10,829 nucleotides of DNA from a bacterium (GTDB lineage Bacteria > JALSQH01), in NCBI GenBank assembly GCA_026985515.1, contig JALSQH010000155.1, positions 1-10,829 on the forward strand, read 5' to 3'. This document shows, in pieces, positions 9,164 through 10,829 of the stretch; position 1 is the first letter of the stretch, and each line of letters opens with the position of its first letter. Made by a program: the position numbers and the translations under genes. The notes under the pieces were generated by a model. It did not search any database. It was not told the origin of the DNA and worked only from the letters and a program-made list of their open reading frames with translations.

Positions 9164-9590
9164 TTCTGCCCTTGTGTGCCTGAATTGTGGAAGAAGTCTG
9201 GCAGGAGTAAAGGAGGATGATTTTGTTATATCCCCGGATGAAGATACAAGTTATATTCTTGGCAAGAGGGAGGAACTGATAAAAATTTCAAAGAGATCAA
9301 AATTGCCCTTTTTTGTGGATTTTTTTATGCTGCTTTTAATTTGGCTTTTTGTTTTTGGCATTTTGCTATTTCTCTCTTTTACCACATTACTTGCAATGGT
9401 TATTGCAGGTGTTTTTACGACACTCTTTTTTCTATTTGTGGAGTTTGTTCTTCTGTTCTCGGGGGAAGGAACATTTGGAGAAATTCTCGTTAAAAAAGAA
9501 GTAGGTGACAGGAAAAAAATAATTCTTTTTCTTATGCTTACTGGTTTTATACCTCTATTTGTTGCCGCCGTTATTCTCTTTTTAAAGTAA
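9126..9590 (+). CDS. Zinc-ribbon membrane protein, RDD-like
   Basis: A 154-aa protein of unknown function. The N-terminus is a zinc ribbon (CPYC at 4-7, CLNC at 18-21, each followed by Gly), then about 35 charged residues, then hydrophobic segments at roughly 61-85, 87-111 and 131-153. PFFVDFFML (61-69) and GTFGEILVKKEV (115-126) resemble the first helix and the TLGKRLLGLRV-type loop of RDD-family proteins, so a zinc ribbon fused to an RDD-like domain is my best description; this rests on pattern only. The ATG at 9126 has GGAAGAG about 5 nt upstream and overlaps rsmE by 38 nt. The stop overlaps that of the convergent membrane gene. The cytoplasmic ribbon may bind a partner protein or nucleic acid (inference). 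Confidence 0.75.
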   Translation: MKKCPYCGFNNPDSALVCLNCGRSLAGVKEDDFVISPDEDTSYILGKREELIKISKRSKLPFFVDFFMLLLIWLFVFGILLFLSFTTLLAMVIAGVFTTLFFLFVEFVLLFSGEGTFGEILVKKEVGDRKKIILFLMLTGFIPLFVAAVILFLK

Positions 9591-10514
9591 GTTTTTTAAA
9601 CTCTCCCTCAGAATTTTCCATGAAGGACCGTTAAACCCTTCTATCAGGGCCATGGTTAAAAAGACCCCTGCACCTGCCAGGAACTGTGCAAGAATGGCAT
9701 AAAGAATAAGGATCCAGTACCTGCGCAAACTTTTTTTTCTTTTCTGGTAGTGGAGAAAGAAGAGAGCGTAAAAGAAAACTGCATAGAACCACGATACAAA
9801 ATTTATAATGGGTACCCCCATGAATTGTAGTTCATTTTTCAAAAGATGATTCCACTGCCAGAACTGAATATGGGGGGAACTTGCAACAGGATCAATGCTC
9901 ATATCCCAGAAGAGAGCTATTAAAGAGATTGTAAAAGCACCACCAGTAAGAGTTTTAAAGGGGGCAAAATTGATTTTCCTTATTTTTTCAAACATGAAGT
10001 AGGATGTGTAAAAAACTGCGCTCCATCCAATCATAGTTACAAGGGGAGCTCTCAGTGGAGGAATATAAATGTGGAAATTTTTCTCGAAGAAGAAGTTTAA
10101 AATTATGCCACTGTTTTCAAGGGAAAAACCATACAGAAGTGTAATGATGAAGAATTCGATTACACCTTCTTTTCCGTAGAATTTAAAAGCATGTATGAAA
10201 AGAAGAATCCAGAAGATAAAGTTACTTATTTCGTAAATCCATTTTATTTCTGATATTGTGAGGGGAAGGGGAGGAACCAGTTTCTCTATTAATCCCCAGA
10301 TGATCAGAGCAATCAGGATGTTTATCAGGGGATAATACTTGTCGTTTCTATCTTTACCCTCTTTCATAATATAGAGGACAAAAAATGCAAGGGGGAAGAT
10401 GAAAAGGGCACTGGAATATTCGTTTTCCGGGATCCTTGTCTTTGCATAGAATTGGAAAAAATAGAATGAAATCACATAAAACCAAACGGGAAAATTTTTC
10501 CAGATGTTACCCAT
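9582..10514 (-). CDS. Multi-pass membrane protein, CruF/DUF422 carotenoid-biosynthesis type
   Basis: A 310-aa integral membrane protein with about eight hydrophobic segments. Characteristic blocks are YGFSLENSGI (about 128-137), WDMSIDPVASS (203-213) with FWQWN soon after, and MGVPIINFVSWF (232-243), matching the D-x-x-x-DP and GVP-x-x-NF-x-GW patterns of the CruF/DUF422 family. Known members hydrate carotenoid ends (1',2'-hydratase); other members have no assigned reaction, and no other carotenoid gene is present here, so the substrate is open. An ATG at 10547 is in frame, but the ATG at 10514 has AAGGAG at 6 nt and a promoter just upstream, so it is preferred. It converges on the zinc-ribbon gene, overlapping by 9 nt, and stands as a single-gene unit. 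Confidence 0.72.
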   Translation of the reverse strand: MGNIWKNFPVWFYVISFYFFQFYAKTRIPENEYSSALFIFPLAFFVLYIMKEGKDRNDKYYPLINILIALIIWGLIEKLVPPLPLTISEIKWIYEISNFIFWILLFIHAFKFYGKEGVIEFFIITLLYGFSLENSGIILNFFFEKNFHIYIPPLRAPLVTMIGWSAVFYTSYFMFEKIRKINFAPFKTLTGGAFTISLIALFWDMSIDPVASSPHIQFWQWNHLLKNELQFMGVPIINFVSWFYAVFFYALFFLHYQKRKKSLRRYWILILYAILAQFLAGAGVFLTMALIEGFNGPSWKILRESLKNLL

Positions 10515-10537
10515 TGTTTGCTCCTTTTTGAAGGTTA

Positions 10538-10546
10538 ATTTTAGCA
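10538..10546 (-). promoter_or_regulatory. Predicted extended -10 promoter of the CruF-like gene
   Basis: The minus strand reads TGCTAAAAT, an extended -10 (TGnTAtAAT type), about 24 nt before the ATG at 10514. The -35 is weak (CTGAAT at a 17-nt spacing). Transcription would start near 10531, giving a leader of about 17 nt that includes AAGGAG. If correct, the structured region beyond 10551 is not part of this gene's leader. Confidence 0.45.
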
Positions 10547-10550
10547 TAAA

Positions 10551-10829
10551 CCGGGACAGAATTCAGGGAAACCTGAATTAAAATTCATGAAGGGGAGGAA
10601 TACCCCCTTTCGGAAAGGTGACGAATTGACGTCCTGTGGGTTTGTTCATTTCCTATCCCCCCTTCCGACCTTCTGTCCCTCCGTTAAGTGTGACTCCGTG
10701 GGGTAGTTTCACTTGAATAAACCGCTTTCACAGCCGACCCGATGGGAGGCTCCGCAAGAAGGATGTCTTCCTCTGCGGGCATTCCACGATTGCTCCGCCT
10801 TTACCCCATCGTGTCTGTCTCCGTCACAA
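10551..10829. ncRNA. Unidentified structured RNA region, possibly truncated by the window edge
   Basis: No gene in 280 nt, and base composition breaks from its surroundings: 36 of 60 bases are G or C at 10741-10800, against 16 of 60 at 10201-10260. Pairings seen: GGGACAGAA (10553-10561) with TTCTGTCCC (10671-10679), a perfect 9 bp closing a domain; a GAAA tetraloop hairpin with 8-bp arms (10560-10579); GGGG/CCCC (10592-10606); CCTTT/AAAGG (10606-10618); a 10-position stem with one mismatch and one wobble (10686-10695/10705-10714); CGATGGG plus AGGC (10740-10750) with GCCT and CCCATCG (10797-10811); inside that a hairpin at 10752-10778; TGTGAC (10689-10694) with GTCACA (10823-10828). The GNRA loop and one wobble favour the plus strand, while the 10752-10778 hairpin pairs slightly better on the minus strand, so I leave the strand open. 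I could not assign it to a known RNA family. Confidence 0.55.
10560..10579 (+). repeat. Perfect hairpin with GAAA tetraloop
   Basis: AATTCAGG, GAAA, CCTGAATT: 8-bp arms and a GNRA-type loop when read on the plus strand. No T-tract follows on either strand, so it is not a standard terminator. The GNRA loop is the main hint that the surrounding RNA is read rightward. Its first two bases also belong to the 9-bp pairing with 10671-10679, so the two helices would meet there. Confidence 0.7.

Follow-up and report, generated by a model that had tools for sequence, protein, structure and literature searches.

Does the gene-free, GC-rich end of this bacterial contig encode an undescribed structured non-coding RNA? 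The window, meaning the whole stretch of DNA that was analysed, is 10,829 nucleotides long, and an earlier note, made from its sequence, had proposed such an RNA gene at positions 10551-10829. The observations on which the proposal was built were borne out. The GC content was 52.3% over 10551-10829 and 54.5% over 10639-10829. By comparison, 191-nt windows elsewhere in the window had a mean GC content of 38.4% (standard deviation 3.8, maximum 50.3%), and none equalled 10639-10829. No ORF of 60 amino acids lies within 10551-10829. The pairings described for the region were also present: specifically, GGGACAGAA at 10553-10561 matches TTCTGTCCC at 10671-10679 in a 9-bp pairing, CGATGGG and AGGC at 10740-10750 pair with GCCT...CCCATCG at 10797-10811 in a 7+4-bp helix, and the GAAA-capped hairpin, AATTCAGG-GAAA-CCTGAATT, occupies 10560-10579. 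The statement that no known RNA is found here agreed with a search of Rfam, in which nothing reached the gathering threshold anywhere in the window. Using a permissive cut-off (E<5), every score in the window was far under the gathering score of its family. The same search of a complete array from another contig gave chance scores only, and a search for tRNA and tmRNA found none.

The contig end is one cut-off copy of a repeat unit that starts at about 10633-10639, with a leader from about 10601. The features of this copy are as follows.

10551-10600, no strand assigned: single-copy flank upstream of the array, carrying the GGGACAGAA half-site and the GAAA-capped hairpin; no repeated match begins left of 10601, and by sequence the flank is also upstream of the divergent gene at 9582-10547.
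10601-10638, + strand: diverged left-end leader of the array, based on the BLAST match to C45, which begins at 10601, and on the leader alignment.
10639-10666, + strand: pyrimidine-rich spacer (TTTGTTCATTTCCTATCCCCCCTTCC), based on the sequence and the array alignment.
10667-10694, + strand: terminal inverted repeat, left arm (GACCTTCTGTCCCTCCGTTAAGTGTGAC); in complete copies, its outer 13 nt pair with the right arm without mismatch.
10698-10731, + strand: variable hairpin within the unit (alignment columns 32-66).
10733-10818, + strand: most conserved inner domain (alignment columns 68-154), with a closing helix, 10733-10746/10805-10818, and two branch hairpins.
10823-10829, + strand: start only of the right arm (GTCACAA), the remainder of which (ACCACTCCGGGACAGAAGGTC in complete copies) falls beyond the contig end.

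The 9-bp long-range pairing uses the copy of GGGACAGAA in the flank; in complete units, the pairing is instead with the 13-nt right arm, GGGACAGAAGGTC, which the window copy has lost to the contig end. As delimited, 10551-10829 folded with z-scores of -2.9 on the + strand and -2.0 on the - strand relative to shuffled sequences. These values are moderate because the region combines a flank that is mostly single-copy (10551-10638) with a repeat unit truncated by the contig end. Promoter- and terminator-like signals in the window copy did not exceed chance expectation. On the - strand at 10590-10609, just upstream of the divergent gene, there is a terminator-like hairpin, AAGGGGGTATTCCTCCCCTT, followed by CATGAATTTT; a similar number of such hairpins is expected by chance.

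A census of the same genome by sequence search yielded 16 BLAST pieces that are 80-95% identical, apart from the window itself, and that lie on 10 contigs, a count to be read as at least ten in an incomplete assembly of 268 contigs. The tandem period is 224-227 bp (~225), and each unit consists of a ~185-bp imperfect palindrome and a pyrimidine-rich spacer of 38-43 bp (~39 bp). The unit begins with GACCTTCTGTCCCTCCGTTAAGTGTGAC and closes ~185 bp on with the imperfect inverse complement, GTCACA(GA)AACCACTCCGGGACAGAAGGTC. The 28-bp arms of these terminal inverted repeats are 75% complementary, the outer 13 bp perfectly so. Arrays range in length from about 0.2 to 2.2 units, and all are intergenic. 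Those in C13, C71, C205, C45, and C222 are complete, with genes and unique, unrelated sequence on either side; the repeat family is therefore not an assembly artefact. Five contigs, including that of the window, stop inside an array, as expected because short-read assembly breaks at repeats. Within this genome, all matches to the inverted-repeat arm pattern with 0-1 mismatch fell within arrays. Twelve isolated half-sites found elsewhere at 2 mismatches were all in other coding regions and were dismissed as chance.

The two ends of the arrays differ in constancy. The left end is fairly constant, CC[T/C]GCAGGTTTGTTCA, and every array start includes the spacer outside the inverted repeat. Six other arrays have leaders that can be aligned with that of the window copy around a GTGAATTG..CC(T/C)GCAGG motif. 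On visual inspection of the alignment, 7 of 9 arrays have in common a leader around GTGAATTG that is diverged. The right ends vary: C243 and C45 end in the spacer, C13 and the third C205 piece after the left arm, C204 and C222 after GTGGTAG, and C71 and C205 inside the inner domain; the arrays have no common right-end module. Copies overrun the left arm, and their right side is truncated.

The repeat is probably a lineage-specific, non-autonomous, non-coding dispersed intergenic element of the BOX/ERIC/Correia kind. An element of this kind would be moved in trans by a separate enzyme, and recombination between units would change its copy number within an array. Should the element affect genes, it would do so through the hairpin, transcribed or extruded, by attenuation of read-through, RNase processing, or effects at DNA sites. 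Some observations count against the small mobile repeat: its composition is GC-rich, unlike that of many such repeats, and the spacer outside the inverted repeat in all array starts is not expected of a plain inverted-repeat transposon.

That the repeat is mobile is suggested only by its dispersal. The arrays have a block structure in common, with a first-unit type and a second-unit type. In a tree, the second units from C141, C71, and C205 form one group (local support about 0.8); they are about 90% identical to each other, whereas each is 75-87% identical to the first unit in its array. Thus, multi-unit blocks were copied to new sites, as opposed to local duplication in each array. C13 and C205 have a right junction in common, followed by a duplicated downstream region, but carry about 2.2 and 0.2 units, respectively; unit number therefore changes. 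Against a mobile element, no target-site duplication was seen by eye at array ends. Comparison with a same-family genome revealed no empty site: synteny was not kept or the gene was absent, and the one locus found there has a different upstream gene. The genome's own 268 contigs contained no autonomous transposon with matching inverted repeats and no copies of the arms outside the arrays.

As far as can be seen from the genomes searched, the repeat family is private to this lineage. Searches of 385 other genomes, among them the one further genome of the phylum that was covered, detected no relatives, and a covariance model run on the phylum's two genomes matched in the repeat's own genome only. 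Phage and plasmid collections, searched in distant mode, and viral contigs, scanned with three exact patterns, yielded none. A one-pattern scan of genome contigs had a sole match, in a Bacteroidales MAG (L057), which was rejected as apparently due to chance, there being no similarity around it. A literature search under general terms returned nothing specific on the repeat. Neither of the two phylum genomes examined (the repeat's own and G001) gave a 16S rRNA match.

The repeat might instead be a tandem multi-copy structured non-coding RNA made from the + strand, with the inner three-way domain as its functional part, a reading that we regard as possible but unlikely. Folding of the complete units speaks for it: relative to shuffled sequences, z was about -6 (+ strand, -5 to -7; - strand, -2.4 to -7). 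Without the 13-bp ends, z was about -1.5 to -4. However, units fold on either strand because a palindrome must fold on both, and palindromy alone predicts what was observed. Also in favour of an RNA, the inner domain is almost invariant, and variation falls in the spacer and in the hairpin of columns 32-66. In a count of the named structure over ten copies, 98% of the cells were paired. Variable positions made up 18 of 124 paired columns versus 18 of 63 unpaired columns, a difference noticed after the fact. All five variable pairs in helices 6-9 stay paired as G-U on the + strand and become A-C mismatches on the - strand, although this count is small and post hoc. The G-U pairs and the lower variation in paired columns hint at a + strand RNA. 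Against this, there were 0 compensatory double changes in 590 cells, a count of little power in copies that are ~90% identical. The covariation check proposed in the earlier note, run on ten copies, likewise found no covarying pairs: the score equalled that of shuffled 3' letters, in copies too similar to decide on the fold. Copies truncated within the fold occur commonly, and the lack of an Rfam match also weighs against an RNA.

Gene context bears on the RNA in both directions. The right neighbour runs in the + direction of the array in 6 of 7 readable loci, the exception being C45, as would suit an RNA read from that strand; the left neighbour points away from the array in five loci. However, several right neighbours appear by eye to carry their own promoter-like hexamers past the array. 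Since these hexamers are located after the array, it probably precedes the promoter instead of belonging to a message leader. The flanking genes have no common function: they encode hypothetical secreted proteins, a NUDIX-like hydrolase, a ParE toxin, a CsgG/laminin-G protein, a PEBP-like protein, and others, the NUDIX and PEBP names being read from sequence motifs rather than from a family search. In C205 (L024:3966-4404), a small ORF and then a ParE-family toxin gene (PF05016) lie between two array pieces. Separately, an upstream region of ~80 bp with a TTGACT-N17-TACACT-like promoter, together with the gene start, is common to about eight loci (L024:4660-4760 in C205, C13, C207, C168, C211, C11, C106, and C65); in C205 and C13, this region precedes paralogous predicted lipoprotein genes.

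With respect to the original proposal, the repeat is indeed structured, undescribed, and non-coding. What was not established is a dedicated RNA gene. Arranged in tandem and dispersed between genes, the repeat has inverted-repeat ends and, as a palindrome, folds on both strands; it showed no compensatory double changes and, in the window copy, no promoter- or terminator-like signals above chance.

Two further readings seem improbable to about the same degree. In the first, the repeat would be a mobile, tandem, structured RNA element. It would spread in blocks of several units, fixed at one end and truncated at the other, a pattern to be expected from RNA- or single-strand-templated copying, and its invariant inner domain would be a functional RNA under selection. 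If the inner domain is a conserved RNA, tandem blocks truncated at one end would represent an unusual mode of spread for bacterial small repeats. In the second, the arrays would be binding or recombination sites for a chromosomal protein, such as one involved in nucleoid organization or segregation or a tyrosine recombinase, with selection acting on the DNA. The strong inverted repeats, the tandem spacing, the intergenic placement, and the difference in unit number between duplicated loci suit such sites. However, the copies are few and irregular, many are truncated, and no candidate protein is linked to the arrays.

An integron-like attC array lacking cassettes is very unlikely. There is a hairpin at the unit junctions and the word GTTAAGT in the left arm fits GTTRRRY, but no partner RYYYAAC core is present and the units are all alike, with no cassette genes between them. 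Moreover, the best integron-integrase score in the genome (TIGR02249) was 129 bits against a cut-off of 265, which is the level of ordinary tyrosine recombinases and was matched in the same way by control genomes. A protein-coding repeat can practically be discounted: the unit length, 225, is a multiple of 3 and some frames run through single copies without a stop, but spacer lengths of 38-43 nt shift the frame, and stops occur in every frame across copies, so that none stays open, in line with the non-coding reading of the earlier note.

The repeat is real, undescribed, and structured, but most likely of an ordinary kind, a palindromic intergenic repeat specific to this lineage. The finding moves from a possible new RNA gene to an undescribed repeat family, and the repeat accounts for the high GC content, the folding, and the several contigs that break off within arrays.

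Among known systems, the repeat resembles REPs and REPINs, the former being 20-40 bp (PMC3733652), in forming dispersed palindromes in extragenic space. A REP/REPIN system with its RAYT was rejected: the Y1 transposase family PF01797 had 0 matches in the repeat's own genome, whereas control genomes matched. Set beside it by description only, the stem-loop-containing repeat families surveyed by Cozzuto et al. (2008), 92 families in 40 bacterial genomes, are genome-specific and mostly intergenic, with one predicted fold per family (PMC2267715). ERIC, Correia (NEMIS), and other prokaryotic MITEs are non-coding, palindromic, intergenic sequences of 100-200 bp with terminal inverted repeats (PMC10969869). 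The present repeat is similarly short, non-coding, multi-copy, and dispersed, with terminal inverted repeats, but it differs in being tandem, GC-rich, and truncated on one side, with a spacer outside the inverted repeats and no parent transposon found. Because of this spacer, and because neither a target-site duplication nor an empty site nor a parent transposon could be demonstrated, we did not file it as a MITE proper. The BOX elements of Streptococcus pneumoniae (boxA-boxB(n)-boxC) are modular and intergenic with variable tandem middle modules, and have inverted-repeat ends, a strong predicted RNA structure, and a proposed mobilisation in trans (PMC3049150). The likeness to BOX is one of description, with no sequence relation seen: like BOX, the repeat is modular and intergenic, with tandem middle units, inverted-repeat ends, and a strong predicted structure. 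Its unit number is variable and its left leader fairly constant, but it differs in that neither a shared right module nor a target-site duplication was seen. It also differs in its unit, which is GC-rich and 225 bp long, and in that its own inverted repeats bound every tandem unit.
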